Origin: Bryobacterales bacterium
GTDB lineage: Bacteria > Acidobacteriota > Terriglobia > Bryobacterales > Bryobacteraceae
Direction of reading: 5' to 3'
Length of the DNA: 58,084 nt
NCBI GenBank assembly: GCA_003163855.1
Contig: PLRJ01000190.1
Location: forward strand, 1 to 58,084
The notes beneath the pieces were generated by a model that did not search any database, was not told the origin of the DNA, and was given only the letters and a program-made list of their open reading frames with translations. Each line of letters opens with the position of its first letter. Within the stretch, counting starts at the first letter, position 1. The position numbers and the translations under genes are program-made. Positions 25,299 through 46,489 of this stretch are shown in pieces.

Positions 25299-26483
25299 AT
25301 GGCCAGCAGCTTTCTCCGTCTGCAAAGCGTGACTGTTTACGTTCGAGATCAGGACCTGAGCCTGCGTTTCTACGTCGATAAACTTGGGTTCAAAGTGATG
25401 GCCGATACGCTGCTGCCGGACGGTACTCGCTGGGTGGCCGTGGCGCCTCCCGATGGGTCCGCCATACTCGGTCTGATCGCGCCGGCGCCTGGTTCCGAGG
25501 AGTTTAAACGAATTGGCCGCAACACAGAAGTCGTCTTTCTGGCCGAAGACGTACAAGCTAAATTCAGTCACTGGACAGCACTTGGAGTGGCCATTCGCAA
25601 GCTTGCGCTCATGCTGACGTGGTCTGGAACGTTCGCCATCTTCGAGGACCTGGATGGCAATTCATTTGGGCTGATGGGATATGACGAGGCCACCAAGCGT
25701 ATAGAAGAGGATCGGCGCGCGGAAACCGCCAAGCTGGAAGCGGAACGGCGCGCCGCTCAGGAACTCGAAATTGCCAGGCAAGTGCAGGCGCGGCTGTTTC
25801 CGCAATCGAAGCCGCAAGCTGGAAAGCTTGATTACGCCGGGTTGTGTATTCAGACTCGCGTGGTGGGTGGCGACTACTACGATTTTCTTTCACTCGGTCC
25901 TGACCGGGTGGGATTGGTGATCGGCGATATTGCGGGCAAGGGCATAGGCGCCGCACTCCTGATGGCAAGCCTGCAAGCCAATTTGCGAAGCCAGTGCGCC
26001 AACGCGCTGAACGATCCGCTTGCCCGCCTGCCGCTGGTGAATCGGCTGTTTTACGAGAACACGGGAGAAAGTGCTTACGCCACGCTCTTCTTTGGTGAAT
26101 ACATTGCGCCATTGCAGCGGATGCAATATGTAAATTGCGGTCACCTTCCGGGGTTGTTGCTGCGGCGCTCTGGCGCGGTGGAGTTGCTTGGTTCAACCTG
26201 TACCGTACTTGGTCTGTTCAAGTCGTGGGATTGCCCCGTGCATGACGTTTCTCTCCTCGCGGGAGACTTGCTGCTGCTCTACACGGATGGGTTAACGGAG
26301 GCGGCGAACGAAGCGGGCGAGGAGTATGGAGAAGAGCGGCTGATTGAGGCGCTGCGAAGGCATCAGCACTTGCTCCCGGACGCCTTAATTGCAGCGCTTG
26401 TCGATGAACTGCGGGCATTCTCTCCGCATGAGCAACAGGACGATGTCACGGTGATTGTGGCCAAAGTTCCTGAATCGCTTTGA
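25299..26483 (+). CDS. VOC (glyoxalase-like) domain fused to SpoIIE/RsbU-type PP2C phosphatase
   Basis: This 394-residue protein has two domains. Residues 1-130 are a VOC/glyoxalase-bleomycin-resistance fold (VTVYVRDQDLSLRFYVDKLGFKV ... FAIFEDLDGNSFGLM). A charged helical linker (about 133-165) leads into a PPM/SpoIIE phosphatase with ARQVQARLFPQ, VGGDYYDF, VIGDIAGKGIGAALLMA, LYTDGLTEAANEAG and QQDDVTVIV; these Asp residues bind Mn2+. Such phosphatases usually dephosphorylate anti-anti-sigma factors in partner-switching. The VOC domain may sense a small molecule or metal, which is inference. No anti-sigma or STAS gene is adjacent. The C-terminal end is 25 bases before the enolase-superfamily gene. 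Confidence 0.9.
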   Translation: MASSFLRLQSVTVYVRDQDLSLRFYVDKLGFKVMADTLLPDGTRWVAVAPPDGSAILGLIAPAPGSEEFKRIGRNTEVVFLAEDVQAKFSHWTALGVAIRKLALMLTWSGTFAIFEDLDGNSFGLMGYDEATKRIEEDRRAETAKLEAERRAAQELEIARQVQARLFPQSKPQAGKLDYAGLCIQTRVVGGDYYDFLSLGPDRVGLVIGDIAGKGIGAALLMASLQANLRSQCANALNDPLARLPLVNRLFYENTGESAYATLFFGEYIAPLQRMQYVNCGHLPGLLLRRSGAVELLGSTCTVLGLFKSWDCPVHDVSLLAGDLLLLYTDGLTEAANEAGEEYGEERLIEALRRHQHLLPDALIAALVDELRAFSPHEQQDDVTVIVAKVPESL

Positions 26484-26508
26484 GATATTTTCTGACAAGA
26501 GGAATTCC

Positions 26509-27798
26509 ATGCCGAATTGGACGCGCAGAGAAACTATCGCATCGCTTTCAGGACTGACAGCCGTCATGTCGTTTGGCGTGGCAAAGGTGCTGGGTCGCAC
26601 ACCCATTAAAATTACAGACCTTAAATGCGCCATTATTGGCCGCAATCCGGTGGTGCGCATCGTCACTGATCAAGGCATCTCCGGCTATGGGCAAGCCGAG
26701 TCCGCCAAACCCTACCTGAAACCAATGGTGCTTTTTTATAAGGACTACATTGTTGGCGAAGACCCGACTGACGTCGCGCGCGTGATGCTGAAGATCCGCC
26801 GGCTTGGCGCGTTCAAGCCGTGGGGTTCGGCAGTCAGCGCCATCGAGATAGCTTTATGGGACATCGCCGGCCAGGTAGCGGGCGTACCGGTATATAAGTT
26901 GCTAGGCGGCAAGATACGCGACCGAGTACGCGCCTACAATGGCGCCGTCCGTTTCCCCATGACGGGCCAGACGCCGCAGGATTACGCCGAAAACATGCAG
27001 AAAATGAAGGAGGCGAAAGAGGGATTCACGCTTATCAAGCAAGCTGTCGGCTTTCACAATCCGGCGATGATGCGCGGCATTCCTGACGCATGGTATGACG
27101 AACCACGAACTGGAGCCTCACATCCCGATCGCGGCCTGATGACGGAACGCGGTCTCGAGTATGTCATCAGCTGCGTCCAGGCGATGAAGAAGGTTCTCGG
27201 CGATGAAATCGGCCTTGCGCTGGACTGCGGGCCCGGCTGGACGGTAAAAGATGCCATCACTTTTGCCAGAGCGCTGGAGCCGCTGCATATAGCGTGGCTG
27301 GAAGACATAATTACCGGCGACTACACACCTTACCCAAATGCCGAAGTCTTTCGCGAGGTGACACAGAGCACGTCGGTCGCGATTCACACGGGAGAACAGA
27401 TCTACCTCCGAGAGAATTTCAAGGATCTCATCGAGAAGCAGGCAGTGAATGTCGTGGGCCCCGATCCGGAAGATGTCGGCGGGTTAGCAGAGATGAAGTG
27501 GATTGCGGAATATGCCGATCTTCACGGCATTCTGATAGCTCCTCATGGCGTTTTCGACGGACTGATCGGGCTTGCGGCGCATGTTCAGTTGGCGGCCGCG
27601 TTGCCGCAAAACTACATTGGCTTCGAGTATCCCCTGGGTCAGCCCGAGTGGTGGTATCAGATTGTCGATGGCTTGCCCGACCCCATCATGAAGAAAGGCT
27701 TCATCGATGTTTGGGACAAGCCCGGTCTGGGTGTCACGTTTAATATTCCAGCGGCGAAAGCCCGGCTGACGGATGCGGATCGTCACTTCTTCGATTGA
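26509..27798 (+). CDS. Mandelate racemase/muconate lactonizing enzyme family protein, Tat-signal
   Basis: I chose ATG 26509 because aagagga precedes it and it gives a Tat-like signal (NWTRRETIASLSGLTAV). The 429-residue enolase-superfamily protein has the N-terminal capping domain and an (alpha/beta)7-beta barrel. Metal ligands are visible as D in LALDCGPGW, E in WLEDIITGDYTPY and E in HTGEQIY; a catalytic His lies in APHGVF and a Lys in TLIKQAVG. This set suits the galactonate/sugar-acid dehydratase type, which abstracts the proton alpha to a carboxylate. Export of such an enzyme is unusual outside Acidobacteria and Planctomycetes. It is followed by the isochorismatase-like gene. Confidence 0.9.
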   Translation: MPNWTRRETIASLSGLTAVMSFGVAKVLGRTPIKITDLKCAIIGRNPVVRIVTDQGISGYGQAESAKPYLKPMVLFYKDYIVGEDPTDVARVMLKIRRLGAFKPWGSAVSAIEIALWDIAGQVAGVPVYKLLGGKIRDRVRAYNGAVRFPMTGQTPQDYAENMQKMKEAKEGFTLIKQAVGFHNPAMMRGIPDAWYDEPRTGASHPDRGLMTERGLEYVISCVQAMKKVLGDEIGLALDCGPGWTVKDAITFARALEPLHIAWLEDIITGDYTPYPNAEVFREVTQSTSVAIHTGEQIYLRENFKDLIEKQAVNVVGPDPEDVGGLAEMKWIAEYADLHGILIAPHGVFDGLIGLAAHVQLAAALPQNYIGFEYPLGQPEWWYQIVDGLPDPIMKKGFIDVWDKPGLGVTFNIPAAKARLTDADRHFFD

Positions 27799-27806
27799 GA
27801 GAACAG

Positions 27807-28634
27807 ATGGTTATGTCGCCGCGCTTTTTGCTGTTCGGTGTAGTTATGTTTGCGGGCTACGCGTGTTGGCCAGCGCAGACGCCCGTGTACCATCTGCCAC
27901 TGCGTTCGCGCGTCCATTTGTTCCACGGCGGCAATGAATGGAGCGAAGCTCAAGTTGACTACTCGTTCGATCCGGCGAAGAGCGCCCTAATTGTCTGTGA
28001 CATGTGGGATCAACACTGGTGCCGCGGAGCGAACGCCCGAGTTGGCGAACTGGCGAAAAAATTAGAGCCGGTGCTGGAGTTCTCGCGCAGCAAGGGAATC
28101 ATTATTGTGCACGCACCGTCTGACACCATGCAATTTTATGCGAAGGTGCCCCAACGCCAGCGCATGCTGACGTTACCGTCATTCACTCCGCCGAAGGAAA
28201 TGCAGATCAGCGCGCCTGCTCTGCCGATCGACGACTCAGATGGCGGTTGCGATACGGCAGGGGATAAAGAACACCGCGTCTGGACCTGTGAACAATCGAT
28301 CTTGAAAATTGCGCCGGGTGATTACATCTCGGACAACGGGCAGGAGATTTATAACCTGCTGCGTTCGCGCGGAGTTCAGACCATCTTCTACACGGGCGTA
28401 CACACCAATATGTGCATTTTGAACCGGACGTTCGCTATCAAGCAAATGACCAAGTGGGGAATGCGCTGCATATTATTGCGCGACTTGACTGATGCCATGT
28501 ACGGACCACAGGACGCGCCGCACGTGACTCATAGAGAGGGCACTGAACTGGTGATCGAGTATATCGAGAAGTATTGGAGCCCGACCGCGCTCTCGACCGA
28601 TCTCGGCCGGGCTCTAAATTCAGATAAGAACTAG
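27807..28634 (+). CDS. Exported isochorismatase-family cysteine hydrolase
   Basis: With ATG 27807 (gagagaac upstream) the product has 275 residues. The N terminus is a hydrophobic signal (FLLFGVVMFAGYACWPAQT) in which a Cys could be a lipobox. The hydrolase domain carries the Asp of ALIVCDMWDQHWC and the catalytic Cys of FYTGVHTNMCILNR. Members hydrolyse amide or ester bonds in compounds such as nicotinamide or N-carbamoyl-amides, or isochorismate. It is 8 bases after the enolase-superfamily gene and probably cotranscribed. Its 3' end overlaps the convergent small protein gene by 4 bases. Confidence 0.87.
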   Translation: MVMSPRFLLFGVVMFAGYACWPAQTPVYHLPLRSRVHLFHGGNEWSEAQVDYSFDPAKSALIVCDMWDQHWCRGANARVGELAKKLEPVLEFSRSKGIIIVHAPSDTMQFYAKVPQRQRMLTLPSFTPPKEMQISAPALPIDDSDGGCDTAGDKEHRVWTCEQSILKIAPGDYISDNGQEIYNLLRSRGVQTIFYTGVHTNMCILNRTFAIKQMTKWGMRCILLRDLTDAMYGPQDAPHVTHREGTELVIEYIEKYWSPTALSTDLGRALNSDKN

Positions 28635-28943: not shown

Positions 28944-29285
28944 GACCGGATCCCTGGCTGGGCTGCTCCGCCGGCGGCAGCCGAAGGGTCGGGCGTCCAG
29001 GTGGATGGCCAGCGTGCGCTTGATCTTTTCAAGCGCGCTTGCGAAGCCGATCTGGCTGAAGGATGAGGCGATGAAGGAAATATCTATGCGAGGGGAATCG
29101 GCGTCCCCAGAGACATGCCCTTCGCCGTCTCCTTATTTAAGAAAGCGTGCGATATGGGCAACAGTTACAGAAGCATTTATCGGGCTGGCGATGGAGTTCC
29201 ACGTGATCCGCTGAAAGCCAGGGAGTACTTTAATAAGGCATGCAGCCTGGGTCAGCAGCAAAGCTGTACGGTGGCGATGCAATGA
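28944..29285 (+). pseudogene. Sel1-repeat (SLR) protein remnant
   Basis: The reading frame contains Sel1-type repeats: GSGVQVDGQRALDLFKRACEADLAEG, then TGA at 29067-29069 where the repeat normally has Cys, then GNIYARGIGVPRDMPFAVSLFKKAC, DMGNS, IYRAGDGVPRDPLKAREYFNKAC and SLGQQQSC. A few residues are also missing after DMGNS in the next repeat unit. No start codon is evident; the frame is open from a TAA at 28941. The last TGA overlaps the start of the NTF2-like gene. Sel1 proteins are tetratricopeptide-like scaffolds, and this copy is broken. Confidence 0.7.
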
Positions 29286-29734
29286 TGCGTTCTTTGCAAA
29301 TTATCGGCTGCCTGGTGCTCGCGGCCGGCGCGATGCGTTCGGCGACTCCGAGTTCAGAAAATCGCGCTATTAGGGCGGTGATTCAGCGTTACGTCGATGT
29401 TCGTAACCATTTCGACGAAGCTGCGCTGCGCGAGTTATTCACTCAGGACGCCGACCAGCTGGTTTCAAACGGAGAGTGGCGGCGCGGGTTGGAGAATCTG
29501 GTGCAAGGGGCTGCGGCGAGTTCAAAGAAAGAGAATGGGCGGAGTTCGGTGGTTGTGGATCACATACGGCTGCTAAGTCCGAATGTTGCCATTGTGGACG
29601 GCCGCTATGAAACGTCGGCGGCGGGAGCAAGTTCGCCTCGCAAGATGTGGTCGACGTTCGTTTTGCTCAAAAAGGAAGGACGTTGGCGCATCGCGGCTAT
29701 TCGCAATATGCTGCCCACGGTGCCTCTGCCTTAG
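29282..29734 (+). CDS. Secreted NTF2-like (SnoaL/DUF4440) protein
   Basis: A 150-residue protein (ATG 29282; 29285 also possible). The N terminus is a signal peptide (RSLQIIGCLVLAAGAMRSA). The rest matches the SgcJ/EcaC-type NTF2-like fold: AIRAVIQRYVDVRNHFDEAALRELFTQDA, GRYET and TFVLLKKEGRWRIAAIRNM. This cone-shaped fold binds small hydrophobic ligands, but the role is unknown here. It overlaps the end of the Sel1 remnant by ATGA. It converges on the LivM gene. Confidence 0.8.
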   Translation: MMRSLQIIGCLVLAAGAMRSATPSSENRAIRAVIQRYVDVRNHFDEAALRELFTQDADQLVSNGEWRRGLENLVQGAAASSKKENGRSSVVVDHIRLLSPNVAIVDGRYETSAAGASSPRKMWSTFVLLKKEGRWRIAAIRNMLPTVPLP

Positions 29735-29745
29735 CGATCACGTTC

Positions 29746-30657
29746 CTACCGTGAGGAAGCGCCCAATAAACCGCGCGGCCGGATGAGCAGTGTCACGGCG
29801 ATTAGAGCGCCTATTAAGACAACTTGCAAAGCGGCGCCGCGGGCTTGTTGTGCCTGCGGGATCCATGCCCTCAGAAGCCCACCGGAGGCGGTCCAAAATC
29901 CCCAAACGACGAAGGCGCCGAGGATTGCTCCTCGATTGTTGCCTGCTCCGCCGACGATCAACATCGCCCAGAGTTGAAAGGTCAGGATGGGAAGAAAGTC
30001 TTCAGGCGCGATGAAGCCGAGGAAGTGTGCGTAAAGCGCGCCGCCTAAACCCATCAGCATGGCGCCGATGACAAAGCTCTGTAAACGGAAGGCCCAGACG
30101 CGTTTGCCGATTGAAGATGCCGTCTCTTCCTCTTCACGAATGGCACGCAGGACGCGTCCCCACGGGCTGTTCACCAACTTTTCCAAGGCCAGGTAGACGA
30201 AGGCTAGTAAGGAGAGCGATAGCGCCAGATATGCAAGGTTCCAGCGCAGACCGGTTCCCAGCGAACTCTGCATCGGCTTCGGGATGAATTGGACTCCGAA
30301 GGGGCCGCCGGTCAAAGGCGTGGCATTGTTAGCGACAACCTGGATGGCGACAGCGATGCCGAAGGTTGTTATGGCCAGGTAATCGCGGCGGAGGCGCAAC
30401 GCGACTGCTCCGGCGCAGAGTCCGACTAAGCCGCTGACGAGTGTGGCGGCGACAAGGCCGACTGCTACAGGCCAACCGAATCTACTCGGCGTAGTCAATA
30501 GGGCCGAGGTGTAGGCTCCGGTTGCGACGAAGCCGGCTACACCCACGTTGAAGAGGCCGGTAAAGCCCCATTGCAGATTCAGACCTAACGCGATGATTGA
30601 GAATACAGTGGCGAACACCATGAAGAAGCTGGCGTAGGCGAGCCAACCTATGACCAT
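29746..30657 (-). CDS. livM: Branched-chain amino acid-type ABC permease LivM
   Basis: A 303-residue, nine-to-ten-span inner-membrane permease. The family signature GFTGLFNVGVAGFVATGAY appears near the N terminus, RLRRDYLAITTFGIAVAIQVV in the middle, and the EAA-like cytoplasmic coupling loop ALEKLVNSPWGRVLRAIREEEETASSIG. It forms a heterodimer with LivH and is driven by LivG/LivF. The start overlaps the LivH stop (TGATG). It is the last gene of the operon. Despite the name, members also transport amides, urea or other small organics. Confidence 0.92.
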   Translation of the reverse strand: MVIGWLAYASFFMVFATVFSIIALGLNLQWGFTGLFNVGVAGFVATGAYTSALLTTPSRFGWPVAVGLVAATLVSGLVGLCAGAVALRLRRDYLAITTFGIAVAIQVVANNATPLTGGPFGVQFIPKPMQSSLGTGLRWNLAYLALSLSLLAFVYLALEKLVNSPWGRVLRAIREEEETASSIGKRVWAFRLQSFVIGAMLMGLGGALYAHFLGFIAPEDFLPILTFQLWAMLIVGGAGNNRGAILGAFVVWGFWTASGGLLRAWIPQAQQARGAALQVVLIGALIAVTLLIRPRGLLGASSR

Positions 30658-31574
30658 CAGCTTCGTTCTCCGAATAGCCCGTTTGGCCGGACCATCAGAA
30701 TCAAGATCAATACGACGAAGGCGGCCGCCGGGCGATACTCAGCGCCGACTAGGATAACTGACGCGCTTTCGGCAAGGCCAACCACAAATCCCCCCAGCAC
30801 TGCTCCCCAAATGGAACCGATGCCGCCTAAAATGACGGCGGCAAAGAGGGGCAGTAGAAGCTCGCCTCCCATGGTTGGACGAAGTTGAACGGTGATGCCG
30901 GCGAACACTCCCGCTATGGCTGCCAGTACTCCGCCGATGATCCAGACGGCGCGCAAAACGCGTTCGGGATCGATACCGGTTACTTGCGCCAGCGCGGGAT
31001 TGATGGCCGTTGCACGCATGGACCGGCCCAACGTGCTGTAGCGGAGGAAGAAATGCAGTGCGATGACGGTGATGAGCGTAAGTGCTAAAACCAGCAACTG
31101 GTCTGGTGTGAAGCGCAGGCCGCCGCCGAAACTGCGGGGGAGAAGAACCAGGGCGATCTGAAGGTTTTGCGCAAAGTATTTAGGCACGCCGCCCTGCCAG
31201 AACAAAAGAAGGTTACGCAGCACGAGAGCCGCGCCGAAGCTGGCGATTACCAGCGTGATGGAGCCGTGTTTGCGCAGCCGCTTGAAAAGGATTGCGTCGA
31301 GTGCGAGCGCGAGGAGAGCCGTTAAACCGGCGGACGCCACCATCGCAAGCAGAAGGCCCCAGCCGAAGGAAAAAGGGCCGAGGGGCGCGGCGAGTGCTTC
31401 ATTGATTTGCGCGAGACCACTGGTGACCAGCAGCGCAAGATAGGCGCCCCAGGCGAGTAATTCGCCGTGACTGAAGTTTGAAAAGCGGACGATGGATATG
31501 GTGAAGCTTAAGCCGATGGCGCCGAGCGCTACTACGGAACCAATGATCAGGCCGTCGGCGATAATCTGAAACAC
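30657..31574 (-). CDS. livH: Branched-chain amino acid-type ABC permease LivH
   Basis: A 305-residue permease with eight membrane segments. The N-terminal motif FSNFSHGELLAWGAYLALL and the coupling loop RYSTLGRSMRATAINPALAQVTGIDPERV match the LivH family. The start is GTG, sharing its G with the TAG of LivF (TAGTG), so translation is coupled. It pairs with LivM, whose start overlaps its own stop. Confidence 0.92.
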   Translation of the reverse strand: MFQIIADGLIIGSVVALGAIGLSFTISIVRFSNFSHGELLAWGAYLALLVTSGLAQINEALAAPLGPFSFGWGLLLAMVASAGLTALLALALDAILFKRLRKHGSITLVIASFGAALVLRNLLLFWQGGVPKYFAQNLQIALVLLPRSFGGGLRFTPDQLLVLALTLITVIALHFFLRYSTLGRSMRATAINPALAQVTGIDPERVLRAVWIIGGVLAAIAGVFAGITVQLRPTMGGELLLPLFAAVILGGIGSIWGAVLGGFVVGLAESASVILVGAEYRPAAAFVVLILILMVRPNGLFGERS

Positions 31575-32293
31575 TAGGCGCGGCCGCCAAGATAGAGTTC
31601 GGCCACACGGTGGTCGTTCAACAAATCGGAACTCTTGCCGACGACTCGCTCTCTTCCCTCGACCAGCACGACGGCACGGTCGGCCAGCGCCAGCGCGGCT
31701 TTGACGTTCTGCTCCACTAGCAAGACCGTTACACCGGTAGCGCGCACTTCGCGCAGTTTACTGAAAACCTGATCGACCATCTTGGGACTTAAGCCTGCGG
31801 ATGGTTCATCCAAAATCAGCAGTTTAGGCCGAGCGATAAGTCCGCGCGCAACGGCTAGCATTTGGCGCTGTCCGCCGGAAAGCCGTCCGGCTAAATAGGC
31901 GCGTTGGCGGTGAAGGTCTGGAAACATTGCGTAAACAGGATCCAAACTTTCACGCCGATTGGCTTTCACAATGGACGCCGCAAGCTCAAGATTTTCAGCG
32001 ACGCTGAGATTGACAAAAACGTTTTCCGTTTGCGGCACGAAAGCCAGACCTTCAAAAACCATACGATGCGCCAACGTTTTAGTGATGTCGTGTCCGAACA
32101 GCAGGTTACGTCCGCGGCTGATGGGGACCAAGCCAGCCACGGCCTTCACCAATGACGATTTACCTGCGCCATTCGGTCCTATAATTGCCACAATCTCACT
32201 GGCCTGGACAGCTAAAGACGCGCCGCGAACAATGGGCAGCCCAGGCTCATAGCCTGCTTCCAGTGCCTCAATGGCAAGCGCCGGCATGGTCAT
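31574..32293 (-). CDS. livF: ABC transporter ATP-binding protein LivF
   Basis: A 239-residue ATPase with Walker A GPNGAGKSSLVKA, signature LSGGQRQMLAVARGL and Walker B LLILDEPSAGLS. The product resembles LivF (PQTENVFVNLSVAENLE is a LivF-type Q-loop region). It energises LivHM together with LivG. Its start overlaps the LivG stop by ATGA. Confidence 0.92.
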   Translation of the reverse strand: MTMPALAIEALEAGYEPGLPIVRGASLAVQASEIVAIIGPNGAGKSSLVKAVAGLVPISRGRNLLFGHDITKTLAHRMVFEGLAFVPQTENVFVNLSVAENLELAASIVKANRRESLDPVYAMFPDLHRQRAYLAGRLSGGQRQMLAVARGLIARPKLLILDEPSAGLSPKMVDQVFSKLREVRATGVTVLLVEQNVKAALALADRAVVLVEGRERVVGKSSDLLNDHRVAELYLGGRA

Positions 32294-33063
32294 GCTGCAT
32301 TGCCCAGATAGGCCTCAATTACGCGCGGATCGTTCATTACGGTCTTAGCGTCGCCGGAGACTAATAGCTGCCCTTGCGCCATTACGAGCACTGGCTGGCA
32401 TAAAGCAGCGACGAGATCCATGTTGTGTTCGATGATCAAGAATGTCGTGCCTTCGGCATTGAGTGCGGCCACCTTTTCGACAATCTGATTGAGCAAGACC
32501 GGGTTGACGCCCGCGCCGGGTTCGTCCAGCAGCACGAGCTTTGGTTTTGAAACCATCACTCGCGCTAGTTCAAGCAGCTTGCGCTGGCCACCCGACAAAA
32601 TGCGCGCGGGCTGCGTCTCGAGTTCAGATAGTCCCACAAAATTGAGCCAATGCCTGGCGGCTTCCCGCGCGTCGCGTTCCTGCTGCGCAACCAGCATTGG
32701 GCGCAGCCAGTTATTCCAGAGGCGCTCACCTGCCTGGTTTTTTGCGGCTACCATCACGTTATCCAGTACCGACATCTCCGGGAAAGGCCTGGGAATTTGA
32801 AAGGTTCGCGCCAGCCCGGCTGAAAATATGTCGCAAGGTGCAAGGCCGCAGATGTCGCGGCCGCCCAGTAAGATGCTTCCGGAAGTTGGCTTCATAGCGC
32901 CGGCGAGGCAGTTGAAGAGGGTCGTTTTACCAGCGCCGTTAGGGCCGATGAGGCCTGCGATGGAGCCGGATTTTAAGGAAAAGGAAATTTGGCTAACCGC
33001 GTGATGGCCGCCGAAATTCTTTGTCACTGCGTCGGCTACCAGAAGATCACTGCCAGTTGTCAT
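32290..33063 (-). CDS. livG: ABC transporter ATP-binding protein LivG
   Basis: A 257-residue ATPase with Walker A GPNGAGKTTLFNC, LARTFQIPRPFPEMSVLDNVMVA typical of LivG, signature LSGGQRKLLELARVM and Walker B LVLLDEPGAGVN. The C-terminal ANDxxVIEAYLGN element appears as MNDPRVIEAYLGN. It starts 17 bases inside the end of the AKR-RidA gene, so the ribosome reinitiates there. Confidence 0.92.
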   Translation of the reverse strand: MTTGSDLLVADAVTKNFGGHHAVSQISFSLKSGSIAGLIGPNGAGKTTLFNCLAGAMKPTSGSILLGGRDICGLAPCDIFSAGLARTFQIPRPFPEMSVLDNVMVAAKNQAGERLWNNWLRPMLVAQQERDAREAARHWLNFVGLSELETQPARILSGGQRKLLELARVMVSKPKLVLLDEPGAGVNPVLLNQIVEKVAALNAEGTTFLIIEHNMDLVAALCQPVLVMAQGQLLVSGDAKTVMNDPRVIEAYLGNAA

Positions 33064-34525
33064 GAGTGATAGCTTCCGCTTCTATCTCGACCAGGTATCC
33101 GTCGCCGATCAACGCCGCCACCACCAGCATGGTGTTGGCGGGACGAATGTGTCCGAAATAGCTGCCATGCACCCGGCTGACGGCCTCCCAGTCGTTGGCG
33201 TTGGTGAGATAAATTCTGGTGCGCACGACGTCTTCCAGTCGACCACCCAGCGCTTTGATGCTGGCGCTGATCTTATCCAGAATGTAAGTAGTCTGCACGG
33301 CGGCATCGTTGCGACCGATGAGATGGCCGCTGCCATGTGTCGCGGTTGTGCCGGAGACGATGATGCGGTCTCCGCTGCGAACGGCGCGTGAGTAGCCGGC
33401 GATGGGCTCCCAGATGCTGCCGCTGTCGATGGTCCAGCGGTTGGAATATCCTTCGCTCGGTTGGCGCTCCCAGAGCGGCTCAAGAGAATTGAGGTGATGA
33501 CTCAAGTCACCAGATGCTGTCAGGAACGGCGGCTTTCGATATTCATCGCCGCAGTCGCCAGGCAGGTTTTTGGTTCCGGCGAAAGCCTTCGAGAGCGTTG
33601 CATGGTCTTCGTCATCCAAAGCGAATGTAAAAACCTTGAGGTTGTCTGACCGATGCTCGGATTCACCCAGCCTTGCTCCGACAATGATGGCGCCCACAGC
33701 CTTTTGTTCAAGTACCCAGCGCGCGGCGACGTTCGACAGCGAAACGCCGTGCTTGCGTGCGACGGCGTGCGCGGCTTGCAGAACGTTTTGCAGAGCCTGC
33801 CATCCACCTACAGCTTGGATGAAGCGGCTGTACTTCATCTTGCTCCAGTCGTTGATGGCGGCAGGTTCGCTTGCACCCAGCCAACGCTCGCTGAGAAAGC
33901 CGCCACCCATAACGCCGTAGGTCAACAGACGCACGCCCCGTTCCAGGCAGAGGGTAGACATTTGTTCGGTTCCGCGCCGGTCGAGCAGCGACATGCAGAC
34001 CTGGTTGGTGGCGACGGGAATGCCTTCGTTCAACAGGACGCGCAAGTGCGCGGTATCGAAATTGGTTAGACCCAGGTGGGCGATTAAACCTTGTTCGCGC
34101 AGACGGGCGAGTTCCAGCATGGCGTCGATGTAGCGAGGGTCATCGAAGGTCCACCAGTGAAACTGCATCAGGTCGATACACGAAGTTTGTAAGCGATGGA
34201 GCGCGCGCTCGACGCCTTCACGTACGACGGCAGCAGTCATGGGACCTGGAGCCGGACACCATTTTGTAAATGCGCGTGCGGATGGATGATTTGGGGACGC
34301 CAGCAACGTTCCGGTAATTACTTCCGCCGAGCCGTAGTGGTCGGCCATGTCGAAGGTGTCGAAGCCGGCGCGCGCGTATTCGGCCAGATCCGCAGCCGCT
34401 TCAACAGGATCGAGCGTTTTGCCATCGCGCTCCATATCGGCGACCTGCCAGAGACCCGTGACGATGCGCGAGATCTCAAGGCCAGGGGCCAGGATTGTGC
34501 GACCGGGTGTTCTTGTTTCTATCAT
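33047..34525 (-). CDS. Aldo/keto reductase fused to RidA (YjgF) domain
   Basis: This 492-residue protein has an NADPH-dependent reductase barrel at the N terminus (about 1-330) with the catalytic set Asp and Tyr in FDTFDMADHYGSAEV, Lys in FTKWCP and His in MQFHWW. From about residue 360 to the end is a complete RidA domain (SGTTATHGSGHLIG; IYLTNANDWEAV; RPANTMLVVAAL, whose Arg binds the imine; VEIEAEA, whose Glu matches the RidA catalytic end). RidA hydrolyses reactive enamines/imines to keto acids and ammonia. One polypeptide could therefore release ammonia and reduce the resulting carbonyl. Its start overlaps the LivK-like stop (ATGA). Substrate unknown. Confidence 0.92.
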   Translation of the reverse strand: MIETRTPGRTILAPGLEISRIVTGLWQVADMERDGKTLDPVEAAADLAEYARAGFDTFDMADHYGSAEVITGTLLASPNHPSARAFTKWCPAPGPMTAAVVREGVERALHRLQTSCIDLMQFHWWTFDDPRYIDAMLELARLREQGLIAHLGLTNFDTAHLRVLLNEGIPVATNQVCMSLLDRRGTEQMSTLCLERGVRLLTYGVMGGGFLSERWLGASEPAAINDWSKMKYSRFIQAVGGWQALQNVLQAAHAVARKHGVSLSNVAARWVLEQKAVGAIIVGARLGESEHRSDNLKVFTFALDDEDHATLSKAFAGTKNLPGDCGDEYRKPPFLTASGDLSHHLNSLEPLWERQPSEGYSNRWTIDSGSIWEPIAGYSRAVRSGDRIIVSGTTATHGSGHLIGRNDAAVQTTYILDKISASIKALGGRLEDVVRTRIYLTNANDWEAVSRVHGSYFGHIRPANTMLVVAALIGDGYLVEIEAEAITHDNWQ

Positions 34526-35787
34526 TTCGGTAGCCGGGCTTGAATAGCGGTGACATCTTCGGCGGATATCTGTCCCGTTGTGACCACTTCGCCGTTCGCG
34601 ATCTTCCAGGTGCGGAAGGGGCCTGCAATATCGCCATATTTGTCGAACTGCACCGGACCAATGACGCCAATATAACGCACGGGCTTCTTCTCGCGAATCA
34701 GTTGCAGTGCGCGGGCGAAACCTTGTGGACCGGCATAAACAACTTCCCCGCCAGGCGCCGTTACTTTGCGAATGGCGTCGCGAATGGCGACTGCTTGAAA
34801 TTTGCCCGCCTGGGCAATGGCTAAGCCGACAATCACGCCCGCATCGAACGCGCGGTCTGCCGCGGGCGAGCCGGCATCAAATCCTCCGCTCATGGCTGGA
34901 TAGGTCCTGGCAAAGTAATCACTCGATGGCGTTCTGGTTGAGCCCGATGACGTGCCATAAGCATTGTTCAAAAATTGCTTTCCCACGCCTTTGATGAAGT
35001 CGGCAGTATTCATGCCGTCGTTCAAGAGGAAGCGCTGTGTCCCGCCCTGTTGAATCCAGGTCCGCACAATGGTGGTGCCGTCGCCCGGATAGCCGATGAA
35101 GTAGAGCGCGGGCGGATCGGTCTGCAGCGCCTTGGTGACTTCGGCATTATAGGAAGACTGTTCGGGATTGTAGGCAGTGGCGCTGGTGATTTTGCCGCCC
35201 ATTGCCTGATAAGCACGGCGGAATTCGGAAAGCATGTTAACTCCGAAATCGTTGTTGACATAGATGATGGCGAGAGTTTTCATACCCTGATCCAAAGCGT
35301 ATTTGGCAGCGGCGGTTCCTTGCAGAGAATCGGCCGTGATGGTGCGGAAAAACCAGCCGTTCGTCTTTCCTTGAACGGCGAGCTTGGTTAGCGATGGCGT
35401 GGACGATGCGGGCGACATCTGCACCACGCCGGCCGGAGCCGTTACTGAAGTGACCATCGGAATGGAGACGGAACTGATGATGCTGCCAATAATGACGGGT
35501 ACCTTTTTTAAATCCACTAACTGGCGCGTCTGATCGACACCTACCGAGCCCTGGCTTTGATCGTCGCGCAAGTCCAGGGCAAGTTTGCAGCCGGCGATCC
35601 CCTGCGGGCCGGCGGCTTTGTTTAGATCCTGAAACGCTAGCTCAACGGACTTGCTTGCGGCTTGACCATAGCGGCCGGCGGCGCCGGTGAGCGATACGAC
35701 CATTCCTACTGTGTGAGTGCAAGACGGGGATTGGGCAGCAGCGATAGCCGCTGTGGCAACAAAAATCAAGAATCGCATGATGATCAT
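34522..35787 (-). CDS. livK: Periplasmic ligand-binding protein, LivK type
   Basis: The start at ATG 35787 overlaps the stop of the nucleobase permease (ATGA) and gives a signal peptide (MIIMRFLIFVATAAIAAAQS). The 421-residue protein is a type 1 periplasmic binding protein: VGMVVSLTGAAGRYGQAASKSVELAFQDLN, VDLKKVPVIIGSIISSVS, LAIIYVNNDFGVNM, DPPALYFIGYPGDGTTIVRTW and PVRYIGVIGPVQFDKYGD. It delivers substrate to LivHM. Residues typical of leucine-, urea- or aromatic-binding relatives cannot be distinguished by eye. Upstream in-frame codons extending to 36081 are antisense-like noise. Confidence 0.92.
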   Translation of the reverse strand: MIIMRFLIFVATAAIAAAQSPSCTHTVGMVVSLTGAAGRYGQAASKSVELAFQDLNKAAGPQGIAGCKLALDLRDDQSQGSVGVDQTRQLVDLKKVPVIIGSIISSVSIPMVTSVTAPAGVVQMSPASSTPSLTKLAVQGKTNGWFFRTITADSLQGTAAAKYALDQGMKTLAIIYVNNDFGVNMLSEFRRAYQAMGGKITSATAYNPEQSSYNAEVTKALQTDPPALYFIGYPGDGTTIVRTWIQQGGTQRFLLNDGMNTADFIKGVGKQFLNNAYGTSSGSTRTPSSDYFARTYPAMSGGFDAGSPAADRAFDAGVIVGLAIAQAGKFQAVAIRDAIRKVTAPGGEVVYAGPQGFARALQLIREKKPVRYIGVIGPVQFDKYGDIAGPFRTWKIANGEVVTTGQISAEDVTAIQARLPK

Positions 35788-37136
35788 TTCTTTCCCGGCA
35801 GCACGGCGTTCAAGAAGAGCGCGCACATGCCGCCAGTGGCAATGCCGGAGGAGAACGTATCTTTCACAATCGGCGGCATGCCTTGGATAATGTCCGGAAC
35901 GAACGTAACTCCGAGTCCGAGGCCGAACGAGATGGCGGCGATGGTTGAGGCGCGGCGGTCCATTTCCACGCCGGAAAGAATTTTGATTCCCGAGACAGCG
36001 ACGGTTCCGAACATAATCAGGGTGGCGCCTCCGAGCACGGCTTGCGGCATGGATTGCACAACGCCGGCAACCATGGGACACAATCCGAGAAGGATTAGTG
36101 TGCCCCCGACGAACAAGGCGATATAGCGGCTGCCGACGCCGGTCAGTTGGATGACACCGTTGTTCTGCGCAAAGGTTGTACTCGGAAACGAGTTGAAGAG
36201 AGCGGCCAGCATTGAGCTGACTCCGTCGGCCATAACTCCGCCGCGCAGGCGCTTGAAATAGATTGGCCCGGTGATGGGCTGACTCGTCAGCAGCGATGTG
36301 GCGGTTAAATCTCCGATGGATTCAATCGCCGTGATGACGTAGAGAAAGCCGAACGGAATAAGAGCGGTCCAGCGAATGCCAAGGCCGTAATGAAGCGGCG
36401 CCGGCACAATCAGCCACGGCAGATGGTGCAGTTGTTCGAAGCCTATCTTGCCGCCGATGATGGCTACGACATAGCCTCCGGCGAGTCCGGCAACGACGGA
36501 AACCAGGCGCAGCCATTCGGATTTGCTGCTGTTCAGCACAACGATAAGGATGATGACGATAGCGGCCCAACCGAGATTCTGAAGTGAGCCGAAACTGCCA
36601 GTTGTCCTGGCGTCAAAGCCGCCGCCAAGACTGGTGATGCCCACCTCTACCAGAGTCAGCCCGATGAGAGTGACGACTACGCCGGTGACCAGGGGCGTAA
36701 TTACCTTACTGGCGATCTCAATAAAAGGACTGATGAGCAGGGGGACGATGGCGGCGAGCATACACGTCCCGAAGACGATACCCAGCGCCTGCGCCTGGCT
36801 GCGGCCTTCGCTTATGCAGGTCTTGGCGAGGGCGATGATGGGTCCCAGAAAAACGAAGCTTGTGCCTTGAATACTTAGCAGGCCAGAGCCCACAGGGCCG
36901 ATTCGGCGGCTCTGGAGCAGTGTTCCGACACCTGAAATCATGAGCGCCATGCTGACGAGAAAGATTTCCGAGGCGCCATCGAGGTTCAGAGCTTTCGAAA
37001 CAAGCAACGGCGGCGTGACGATGCCGACAAATACGGCCAGTACATGCTGCAACGCAACAAAGATGGATTGACGCAGCGGCGGCTTGTCGTCCAGTCCGTA
37101 GATAAGATCGGGGGCAGATGTTTCGATATTGGACAT
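35784..37136 (-). CDS. NCS2 nucleobase:cation symporter (xanthine/uracil permease)
   Basis: A 450-residue, 12-14-span permease. The N terminus (DDKPPLRQSIFVALQHVLAVFVGIVTPPLLVSKAL) is the QH-motif region of the NCS2 family, followed by SIQGTSFVFLGPIIA and, near the C terminus, TFAQNNGVIQLTGVGSRYIALFVG, the conserved family segment. Substrates are xanthine, urate, uracil or similar. It is the first gene of the coupled operon with the Liv-type ABC genes, suggesting uptake of two related or alternative nitrogen compounds. No purine or pyrimidine catabolic enzyme is adjacent. Confidence 0.9.
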   Translation of the reverse strand: MSNIETSAPDLIYGLDDKPPLRQSIFVALQHVLAVFVGIVTPPLLVSKALNLDGASEIFLVSMALMISGVGTLLQSRRIGPVGSGLLSIQGTSFVFLGPIIALAKTCISEGRSQAQALGIVFGTCMLAAIVPLLISPFIEIASKVITPLVTGVVVTLIGLTLVEVGITSLGGGFDARTTGSFGSLQNLGWAAIVIILIVVLNSSKSEWLRLVSVVAGLAGGYVVAIIGGKIGFEQLHHLPWLIVPAPLHYGLGIRWTALIPFGFLYVITAIESIGDLTATSLLTSQPITGPIYFKRLRGGVMADGVSSMLAALFNSFPSTTFAQNNGVIQLTGVGSRYIALFVGGTLILLGLCPMVAGVVQSMPQAVLGGATLIMFGTVAVSGIKILSGVEMDRRASTIAAISFGLGLGVTFVPDIIQGMPPIVKDTFSSGIATGGMCALFLNAVLPGKK

Positions 37137-37188
37137 CTAGACCAAAACGATAGCTCACCAGGAGAAACGCCGGGCGGCCGGGACGGCA

Positions 37189-38067
37189 TCAGGCGGCTTC
37201 GGCTAGTGGTTTTTGACCCTCCGAACGCAGTTGGATGAGCAGTTTGGCCAGACGGAAGTCGGATTTTGCTTCGCGGAAGGCGGCCAGATCGGCAGTTGAA
37301 AAAACGAAGCCAAGTTTTTCTGGTTGGAAGGATTGACCGCTGGCTTCGGCTTGCTTTTCGAGTACGGCGGCTAGTTCGTATGTCTTCTTTTCCTCTTCCA
37401 TGCGGGCTTGTTGGAGGGCCTTCAGTTCAGCCAGATCTTTGGCCCGGTAGCGGGTGAGGCGGTTCTGCTGCAGGTGCAGGTTGCGGAAGTGTTTTTCGTA
37501 GGCGATCTGGATATGGGCTTCAAGCAGATGGGCGGGTATATTTTCGCCGGTTAATTCGAACTCTCCGAGGGCGTGGAAGTTGGCTTCGAGAATGGGGATG
37601 CGGGCAAGGCGCCAATCGTGATCGGCTATGGCCTGCACGAGAGTGGCTTCAAAGGCTCCGACAGGCTTGAGTTCTTTGTGATAAGCGTCGCAATGGGCTT
37701 GATAGCGAGCGGCGTCTTCGGTGGGCAGCAGGATGGCTTGGCCGGTGAGTCCGTGGCGTACGGCGTTGTAGCGGGTGAGGGATTTAGCTGCGTCGGTGCG
37801 AGGGCCGGTGGATTTCTGGGCGTTGGCGCGGTTGGCGGCTAGTTTGGCTTCGGAGATGGCGGGTTTGAATGTGGGTTCGGGCGCGGGCGCGGCGGCAGCG
37901 AGTGCAGTTGTGTAGTTAAATTCTTCGGGAGCTGAATCGGCGTCAGTGACGGTGGCCACGGGCGTGGGTGCTACGGCAGCGGTGGGAAGTCCTTTTTGAG
38001 CGGCTTTTCGGGCGAGTTTGGCGGCTCGGCGCTCGGCGGCGCGGCGTTCGGTGCGGGATTGAGACAT
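37189..38067 (-). CDS. Uncharacterised 'ANRANAQKSTGPRT' family protein
   Basis: A 292-residue soluble protein. Residues 1-30 are rich in Arg, Ala and Lys (RTERRAAERRAAKLARKAAQ), then a Pro/Ala linker, then the distinctive motif ANRANAQKSTGPRTDAAKSLTRYNAVRHGLTG (about 83-115), and a long helical part with charged heptad-like segments (about 130-290). From memory, proteins with this motif occur in many paralogous copies in Acidobacteria and Planctomycetes; their function is unknown. An AAGGAG site precedes the ATG. The leader contains a GCGGGCT direct repeat. No neighbouring function is implied. Confidence 0.75.
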   Translation of the reverse strand: MSQSRTERRAAERRAAKLARKAAQKGLPTAAVAPTPVATVTDADSAPEEFNYTTALAAAAPAPEPTFKPAISEAKLAANRANAQKSTGPRTDAAKSLTRYNAVRHGLTGQAILLPTEDAARYQAHCDAYHKELKPVGAFEATLVQAIADHDWRLARIPILEANFHALGEFELTGENIPAHLLEAHIQIAYEKHFRNLHLQQNRLTRYRAKDLAELKALQQARMEEEKKTYELAAVLEKQAEASGQSFQPEKLGFVFSTADLAAFREAKSDFRLAKLLIQLRSEGQKPLAEAA

Positions 38068-38424
38068 GGGAGTGGCTCCTTTTGGGTTAAGAAAATGAAA
38101 AAGCCCGCAGAGGGTGGATACCTTCTCGCGAGCCCGCTAAAACGTAACATGGGGAGGGGCTAAAACGAACTCTGCTGGTTGTGGAAAAGCGGCCTAGGTG
38201 GTTGTGGGCGTTGAGGTTAGGATTATTTTTCAGGGGTGTGACCGTCCCACGGCGGGTTCGCTGCAAGGGCGATGAAAACGGGTTGAGAAGGTGGGAACAG
38301 TGGCCTCGGGCTCGGGTTTTGCGCGGTCGTGGTTTATCAGGGCAACGGGCTCGCGTTGGTACCCTTCGGGACTACTCGCTTCTTGTGCGCATCCCTGGCG
38401 GACAATCGGAGTTAAGGAGATCAA
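38068..38424. other. Intergenic region with repeat-bearing leader
   Basis: A 357-base region between the divergent 'ANRANAQ' gene and the RidA gene. The minus-strand leader (about 38098-38145) has two copies of GCGGGCT as a direct repeat flanking a weak hairpin (agaaggt-atcc-accctct), then a T run, resembling an attenuator. The rest has no gene; an open frame at 38181-38555 is not protein-like in composition and overlaps the RidA gene. Confidence 0.5.
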
Positions 38425-38805
38425 ATGGCGAGACAAATTGTGTTTACTCCAAAAGCCCCGAAGCCACCACTGACGTACAGTCAAGCTGTCAAGGCTGCTG
38501 GCTTGGTGTTTGTTTCAGGAACCGCACCGCAGGATCCAGAAACCGGCACCATTAACGGCACGACAATTCAAGAACAGACTCGACAGTGCTTGGCGAACGT
38601 CACGGCCATCCTTGCAGAAGCCGGCAGCTCACTCGACAAGATCGTAAGCGCCACTGTTGTGCTGGCTGAAGAGGACGACTTCGCAGGGATGAACGAAGAG
38701 TGGTTGAGGTGGTTCCCGTCAGATCCACCTGCTCGGCAAGGCGCCAAGCTCCCTGTCAAAGTTCCAGGGCTGAAGATTTCTATTGCCGTGATTGCCGAGG
38801 CCTGA
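38425..38805 (+). CDS. Stand-alone RidA (YjgF/UK114) family protein
   Basis: A 126-residue single-domain enamine/imine deaminase homologue preceded by aaggag. Key motifs are FVSGTAPQDPETG, IQEQTRQCLANVTAILAEAGSSLDKIVSATVVL and PPARQGAKLPV, whose Arg binds the substrate carboxylate, then AVIAEA whose Glu is the catalytic end. It clears reactive enamines made by PLP-dependent dehydratases. It trimerises in the family. The gene converges with the broken PEP-CTERM gene. Confidence 0.92.
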   Translation: MARQIVFTPKAPKPPLTYSQAVKAAGLVFVSGTAPQDPETGTINGTTIQEQTRQCLANVTAILAEAGSSLDKIVSATVVLAEEDDFAGMNEEWLRWFPSDPPARQGAKLPVKVPGLKISIAVIAEA

Positions 38806-45868: not shown

Positions 45869-46489
45869 CTACCGGAGTGCCGTATCGAGGTACACGATGT
45901 TGACCTGCTTGCGGGCTTCGGCAAGCCAGGTGTTGAGCGCGGCGTCGGTTCGCTCTTCGGTCAGCTTTTGCGAAATGGCATCGCGCTTGGTTTGAGTTAA
46001 CGGCGGAGGCTCGGTGCCGGGATGCTCGGTTTGGTTGGCTAACTCGATATCTGCGTCTGACACCGATACATCAGGGCTGAATCGGTATTCGATGAAGCGG
46101 AGCATGGTGAGTTGCGCCTTCAGGTAGTTGACCAGGGTGGCCTGGGTGAGATTGTACGATTTCAGCAGGCTTGGGAAAGCAGCCTCACCACCCAGACTAT
46201 TTTCCACTTGCCGCAGATAGATGGACACCTCCTGGTCAGTAGGCAGCGGATAGCGGCTGACTTCCATCTCATGCTGGATGAGGAGGCGCTGCACCAGTCT
46301 GTCGGCAGACGCCCGGCGCGCATCCATACTGCGGTTGACCGGTTCACCATTGATTAGTGCGACCACTCGCAGATCTTCATCGATGCCGAGTTCGGTTATC
46401 ACTTGCTGACCTACCGTAATGGCAAGCTTGTCGATGAGTTCCGCGCGCAGGGTCAGCGAGAACACAGCCATTAATAATAGCCTCTTCAT
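45869..46489 (-). CDS. SurA N-terminal-domain-like periplasmic chaperone, no PPIase domain
   Basis: A 206-residue exported protein (signal about residues 1-16). The rest is helical with features of the SurA N-terminal chaperone domain: IDKLAITVGQQVIT and a RLLIQHEMEV helix, LPTDQEVSIYLRQVEN, and KLTEERTDAALNTWLAEARKQVNIVYL at the end. No parvulin (peptidyl-prolyl isomerase) domain is present. Its start shares a base with the Omp85 stop (TGATG). Position between Omp85 and TamB suggests a chaperone for delivery or folding of outer-membrane proteins. Confidence 0.7.
   Translation of the reverse strand: MKRLLLMAVFSLTLRAELIDKLAITVGQQVITELGIDEDLRVVALINGEPVNRSMDARRASADRLVQRLLIQHEMEVSRYPLPTDQEVSIYLRQVENSLGGEAAFPSLLKSYNLTQATLVNYLKAQLTMLRFIEYRFSPDVSVSDADIELANQTEHPGTEPPPLTQTKRDAISQKLTEERTDAALNTWLAEARKQVNIVYLDTALR

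Follow-up and report, generated by a model that had tools for sequence, protein, structure and literature searches.

A conserved gene module, probably for uptake, with an aldo-keto reductase-Rid fusion in a Bryobacterales genome

The window analyzed here covers positions 1 to 58,084 of contig PLRJ01000190.1 of a Bryobacterales bacterium (assembly GCA_003163855.1). On its minus strand, from 37136 down to 29746, seven open reading frames (ORFs) follow one another in one run; they encode a nucleobase permease of the NCS2 family, a Liv-type (HAAT) importer and a protein in which an aldo-keto reductase (AKR) is fused to a Rid domain. This arrangement raises a question: do all seven genes serve one pathway, as the original prediction proposed, or do only some of them belong together, and what does the unit handle? 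With moderate confidence, we propose that six of the genes would belong to a horizontally transferred module, part of which lies in the window, that takes up and processes a solute resembling an amino acid, and that the NCS2 permease would be an unrelated neighbor. This proposal draws on synteny, domain make-up, residue conservation, exchange of transporters and a gene tree, from which we infer the substrate class, the reaction and the irrelevance of the NCS2 permease.

Six of the seven genes form a conserved module

We compared 144 loci carrying the fusion gene after removal of ten duplicates; L007 and L144, which repeat locus L032 (the same 10,964-base contig), were left out of the counts. 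Many loci end at contig ends, and the counts over the 144 loci describe what was in view. One set of 80 loci comprises the best 80 of at least 554 confirmed ones and leans towards close relatives, and the group labels were set from locus numbers, not from the class of each locus. Among the 99 mostly alphaproteobacterial loci, livK was found in 83, a second aldo-keto reductase gene (AKR2) in 81, a gene for a TIGR04076 protein in 81 and a GntR regulator gene in 53. All five Liv genes were present in 80 of the 99, and 78 of these 80 also carried AKR2 and TIGR04076. The 26 betaproteobacterial loci, many of them on short contigs, gave 22 for livK, 21 for AKR2, 20 for TIGR04076 and 15 for all five Liv genes. 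AKR2 and TIGR04076 were jointly present or jointly absent in every one of the 99 loci and in 25 of the 26.

We also took censuses of the phylum, of classes and of an order, each drawn evenly with the centre genome included. The fusion was found in 18 of 396 Acidobacteriota genomes, 43 of 397 in the order of locus L095, 9 of 385 in the class of L085 and 1 of 369 in the class of L033 (L033's own genome). Neighborhoods were fetched for 40 of the 43 fusion genomes in the order (G458 is L095; G1387 and G1470 were not fetched), and 33 of these 40 held all five Liv genes together with AKR2 and TIGR04076, although in five of the 33 LivK was only 35-37% identical to that of the window. Hence livK, the fusion gene, livG, livF, livH and livM are a conserved module, and its proteobacterial form usually includes AKR2 and the TIGR04076 protein. 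The expectation that the seven genes would be found together elsewhere is borne out by the comparison of the 144 loci for six of them and fails for the NCS2 permease.

The NCS2 permease barely passes the xanthine permease model TIGR03173 (414.2 bits against a cut-off of 414.15), and an NCS2 match of at least 100 bits occurs in 1 of the 144 fusion loci, namely the window alone. Two points weigh against reading this distribution strictly: L132 contains an NCS2-like fragment, convergent to the fusion gene (29% over 154 amino acids, below 100 bits), and contig ends truncate many loci, so that this 1/144 is a count in view. The permease looks like a local neighbor rather than a conserved member of the module, and it is probably unrelated to the module's function. 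The adjacent nucleobase permease invites a misreading; it does not reveal the substrate.

A full-length fusion was found in one other genome among the 60 searched (the window's own and 59 relatives), in the same genus and with 82% identity. In this sister, a Bryobacterales metagenome-assembled genome, contig L032 carries livK, the fusion gene, livG, livF and livH and ends directly after them, and the gene upstream of livK encodes a divergently oriented S46 peptidase, with NCS2 absent from the locus. Another sister contig begins within livH and continues with livM, TIGR04076 and AKR2, linked by TAGTG and TGATG overlaps; the two contigs likely abut. A third sister contig carries the NCS2 homologue (69% identity), next to a gene for an amidohydrolase. 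Because the order livK-fusion-livG-livF-livH recurs in the sister genome at 70-86% protein identity, the arrangement goes beyond chance. The window's genome has TIGR04076 and AKR2 side by side on another contig, C208 (L124, 5562-9723), where genes for phosphoglycerate dehydrogenase and a class-V aminotransferase precede them in one apparent operon. The whole gene set is therefore present in this genome, in two places, the second of which lay outside what the original prediction could see; that AKR2 and TIGR04076 stand apart from the module here weighs against the proposal. Both Bryobacterales assemblies (the window's, G000, and the sister's, G007) are about 89% complete.

The junctions, read from the sequence, differ in strength. 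An ATGA overlap joins livK to the fusion gene, livG starts 17 bases inside the fusion gene, as had been claimed, and the following overlaps are ATGA (livG/livF), TAGTG (livF/livH) and TGATG (livH/livM). By Pfam, the HAAT/Liv importer set is complete: one binding protein, a pair of BPD_transp_2 permeases and a pair of ABC ATPases. An ATGA overlap between the permease and livK depends on an ATG at 35787; homologues favor a start 9 bases downstream, where the methionine at 35778 is nearly invariant in 19 aligned LivK rows, and this start, lying 5 bases past the permease stop, would leave a 5-base gap. The run of seven genes is real, and the permease/livK junction, its weakest, probably lacks the overlap that had been proposed for it. 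A 292-amino-acid ORF without a Pfam match lies on the same strand 52 bases upstream of the permease, and the two may be transcribed together. A promoter and terminator scan of 29500-38200 gave no excess over shuffled sequences (3 against a mean of 2.6; 11 against a mean of 10.2).

The fused AKR-Rid enzyme

The fusion protein consists of an AKR domain (about residues 20-313), a conserved linker (323-345) and a Rid domain (about residues 373-486). Its structural model is confident, with a predicted local distance difference test (pLDDT) score of 88.8 and a predicted template modelling (pTM) score of 0.91, and matches AKRs of the PDB in Foldseek; neither the 50 Foldseek rows nor the 60 rows of the profile search listed include a fused AKR-Rid protein. 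Aldo-keto reductases share the tetrad Asp-Tyr-Lys-His, and D59, Y64, K88 and H123 are invariant in 144/144 fusion loci, so that the catalytic tetrad of the AKR domain is intact. The interdomain linker of 23 residues, GDCGDEYRxPPFLTASGDLSHHL, is also nearly invariant over the 144 loci, which suggests that it may be a working part of the enzyme rather than a loose tether.

The Rid domain matches Ribonuc_L-PSP with 86.2 bits (cut-off 27.3). At the site of the Rid catalytic arginine (Arg105 in Salmonella numbering), however, all 144 fusions have an asparagine, Asn464. Arginine occupies this site in four of five compared Rid proteins of the PDB, and the fifth, 3i7t, which is the best match, lacks it. 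Two papers give this arginine a catalytic role in the imine-hydrolysing Rids, namely RidA, Rid1-Rid3 and RutC (PMC4433059, PMC8113886); in the same papers, Rid4-Rid7, which lack it, appear not to hydrolyse imines (PMC4433059), and no enamine deaminase activity was detectable in Rids without it (PMC8113886). Because the arginine is replaced by asparagine in every copy compared, imine hydrolysis by the Rid domain, a central step of the original prediction, is not supported. We considered 2-aminomuconate deaminase as a precedent for a deaminating Rid without arginine and rejected it, as PMC6742747 lists a conserved cleft arginine for it. A stand-alone Rid gene, divergent from the permease and about 1.3 kb past it, retains the PAR motif with the catalytic arginine and is the genome's best PF01042 match.

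These observations bear directly on the one-pathway explanation, in which the NCS2 and Liv transporters feed a purine- or amide-derived compound, the Rid domain hydrolyses its imine and the AKR reduces the keto product, in the manner of the Rut pathway. The seven genes are contiguous in the window, and Rut likewise brings a transporter for uracil together with a reductase and a Rid protein (PMC8113886). However, the distribution of NCS2 over the 144 loci, its absence from the sister locus with the homologue beside an amidohydrolase gene elsewhere, and the missing arginine all speak against this explanation, as do the scores for RutG (82.0 bits against a cut-off of 758.65) and RutC (50.3 against 169.1). 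We therefore regard it as highly improbable, and a purine- or nucleobase-derived substrate finds no support.

Importers and the class of substrate

If the permease does not reveal the substrate, then the remaining importers may do so. The 17 other Acidobacteriota fusion loci contain no Liv genes over threshold, and in 14 of them an APC amino-acid permease gene adjoins the fusion (tblastn); the contig of L132 begins just before the fusion gene, with the upstream side out of view. The APC gene is Pfam AA_permease_2 in the two loci tested, and its NCBIfam amino-acid transporter matches are below cut-off in three. In the alphaproteobacterial loci L060, L075, L077 and L148, an SBP_bac_5-type binding protein and an amidohydrolase are found (tblastn; Pfam in L075 and L077). 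Two of these three importer families mainly transport amino acids, and peptides are common substrates of the third. Our main argument is therefore that three unrelated importer families beside the same enzyme indicate a substrate that is probably amino-acid-like; that it contains nitrogen, as first proposed, is likely. The APC-bearing Acidobacteriota loci L126, L130, L134 and L141 carry a DUF885 gene downstream of the fusion.

The binding protein is consistent with this class. The LivK model (pLDDT 83.8) has a Thermotoga LivK as its best PDB match, and by both profile and fold its best matches are amino-acid binders, including Leu-binding proteins and Atu2422. Asp257 is invariant in the 19 aligned rows and aligns with an Asp of Atu2422 that presumably holds the amino group of the ligand. 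Several observations weigh against an amino-acid-like solute. Hydroxybenzoate and urea binders appear lower in the same LivK PDB lists, and the ligands of Liv-type proteins include aromatic acids and urea. Moreover, some loci, among them L157, L158, L179, L185, L133 and L137, show no Liv, APC or SBP_bac_5 match at module levels, some of these loci being near contig ends.

On the preferred explanation, the solute would be bound by LivK in the periplasm and then imported by LivHMGF, as expected from the family. In the cytosol, the AKR domain, given its intact tetrad, and the paralogous AKR2 may interconvert a carbonyl and a hydroxyl group on the solute or its product, and the Rid domain would bind an intermediate, probably without RidA-type imine hydrolysis.

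A more specific possibility is that the compound taken up is tryptophan, kynurenine or a relative, with LivK as its importer, and that the AKRs act on a carbonyl of the side chain, as found in kynurenine, ahead of or alongside kynureninase and the 2-aminobenzoate-CoA route. A gene for tryptophan 2,3-dioxygenase, for a kynureninase or kynureninase-like protein or for a member of the benzoate-CoA-ligase family flanks L077, L078, L104, L165, L183 and L194, on either side. Of the 21 fusion genomes in the order census that carry the dioxygenase, 3 have it within 9 kb of the fusion, where 0.075 would be expected (Poisson P 7e-5), and in G1387 the two genes are 36 kb apart on one contig. This statistic, however, is post hoc and uncorrected, and L078, L165 and L183 represent one common arrangement. 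Half of the fusion genomes tested in the order (21/42) lack the dioxygenase, and its presence is not enriched (21/42 of the fusion genomes against 9/28 of the fusion-free ones, p = 0.22). The two Bryobacterales genomes, each about 89% complete, gave no tryptophan dioxygenase match, and their best kynureninase matches were 80.7 and 138.9 bits against a cut-off of 246.4. In addition, the kynureninase-like gene of L077 has a KYNU_C match alone (33.4 bits), and the ligase exceeds the cut-off of the benzoate-CoA-ligase model in L078 but falls short of it in L104, where the contig end truncates the gene. We thus consider this lead unlikely. It is quite unlikely, too, that the fusion is a new two-domain enzyme whose arginine-less Rid works, without hydrolysis, on an enamine or keto form that the AKR domain produces, within a mobile module by which soil bacteria salvage a kynurenine-type carbonyl amino acid.

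The gene neighborhoods bear on a further rival, a detoxification or repair unit in which the AKRs reduce the reactive carbonyls that an imported amino acid gives rise to, while a reactive enamine is captured, without hydrolysis, by the Rid domain. We inspected the neighbor clusters of 86 loci by eye. The largest recurrent clusters that have no module label resemble overlapping or antisense frames. Cluster 6 resembles a GntR-type regulator (7 loci), cluster 7 (6 loci) and cluster 9 (5 loci) resemble ABC permeases of the dipeptide type, and clusters 10-17 have the look of synteny common to 4 or 5 Rhizobium-type loci. Besides the module genes and GntR regulators, no real-looking family recurs in more than 6 of these 86 loci, which speaks for this rival, as does the role of RidA proteins in pre-empting enamine and imine damage (PMC4433059). 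The tight pairing with dedicated importers nevertheless seems to fit nutrient use better, and we judge detoxification to be unlikely.

Probable transfer, gene neighborhood and known systems

In a tree of the fusion protein (94 rows out of 144, the alpha group being represented by half of its members), the window and its sister fall inside a set with 23 betaproteobacterial rows (Shimodaira-Hasegawa-like approximate likelihood ratio test support 99), and the 17 other Acidobacteriota cluster separately (support 100). The contig looks native: the one flanking gene tested, 45869-46489, has its best matches at 50-54% in the same genus, and contamination was rejected on this basis. The nesting in the tree and the native-looking contig therefore point to transfer of the module into Bryobacterales, after which TIGR04076-AKR2 would have become separated and the NCS2 gene would have joined upstream in this lineage. 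A compositional anomaly was considered and rejected, with a G+C fraction of 0.57-0.58 over the module against 0.545-0.589 over the window.

The features of the locus are collected in Table 1. The DUF4440 gene is convergent with livM; DUF4440-like genes are present, too, in 13 of the 99 alphaproteobacterial module loci, and this may be a coincidence. Further along, a gene of the mandelate racemase/enolase type is followed by an overlapping isochorismatase-domain gene.

Table 1. Genes of the run and their neighbors in the window
Feature	Coordinates	Strand	Family matches and remarks
NCS2 xanthine-type permease	35784..37136	-	PF00860 (Xan_ur_permease), TIGR03173
livK-like substrate-binding protein	34522..35778	-	Pfam PF13458 (Peripla_BP_6), 19-row alignment; longer ORF from 35787
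AKR-Rid fusion, 492 aa	33047..34525	-	PF00248 (Aldo_ket_red) + PF01042 (Ribonuc_L-PSP) in one protein
livG-like ABC ATPase	32290..33063	-	PF00005 (ABC_tran) + PF12399
livF-like ABC ATPase	31574..32293	-	PF00005
livH-like permease, GTG start	30657..31574	-	PF02653 (BPD_transp_2)
livM-like permease	29746..30657	-	PF02653
292-aa ORF	37189..38067	-	
Stand-alone Rid gene	38425..38805	+	PF01042
DUF4440 gene	29240..29734	+	DUF4440
Mandelate racemase/enolase-type and isochorismatase-domain genes	26455..28634	+	

The six-gene module is apparently undescribed so far: in the open-licence literature, mostly represented by titles and the starts of abstracts, we recognized no description of the AKR-Rid fusion or of the module. 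The functions of the arginine-less subfamilies Rid4-Rid7 were called completely unknown in 2015 (PMC4433059), and none of these subfamilies had been reported with deaminase activity as of 2021 (PMC8113886). If the non-hydrolytic reading is true, it would supply a function for an arginine-less Rid, of which the consulted passages of these two papers describe none. The fused enzyme is unusual, and the module is conserved and mobile; the AKR fusion and its near-invariant linker have been kept across alpha- and betaproteobacteria and Acidobacteriota beside three unrelated importer families. This pairing of fusion and importer narrows the search for the substrate and makes one arginine-less Rid directly testable.

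Among known systems, the HAAT importers (LivK/LivJ, Atu2422) resemble the module in all five subunits, and LivK matches their amino-acid-binding members in sequence and fold; the identity is 20-22% in the five best structural matches, however, and the module's operon also encodes the fused enzyme. The AKRs Tas (1lqa), DepB (8hwn) and AKR11B4 (3n2t) share PF00248 and the catalytic residues, to which the fusion adds its 23-residue linker and a C-terminal Rid domain. Rids without the arginine (Rid4-Rid7 and PDB 3i7t, which we take to be Mycobacterium Rv2704) are alike in PF01042 and in the missing residue, 3i7t being the best structural match by sequence, whereas the module's Rid is fused to an AKR and has an invariant asparagine at the arginine site. 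Finally, the Escherichia coli Rut pyrimidine pathway also combines a transporter, a Rid protein and a reductase in one operon, but the seven genes include neither RutA nor RutB, the Rid domain lacks the arginine that RutC needs, and NCS2 is not a conserved partner of the module.

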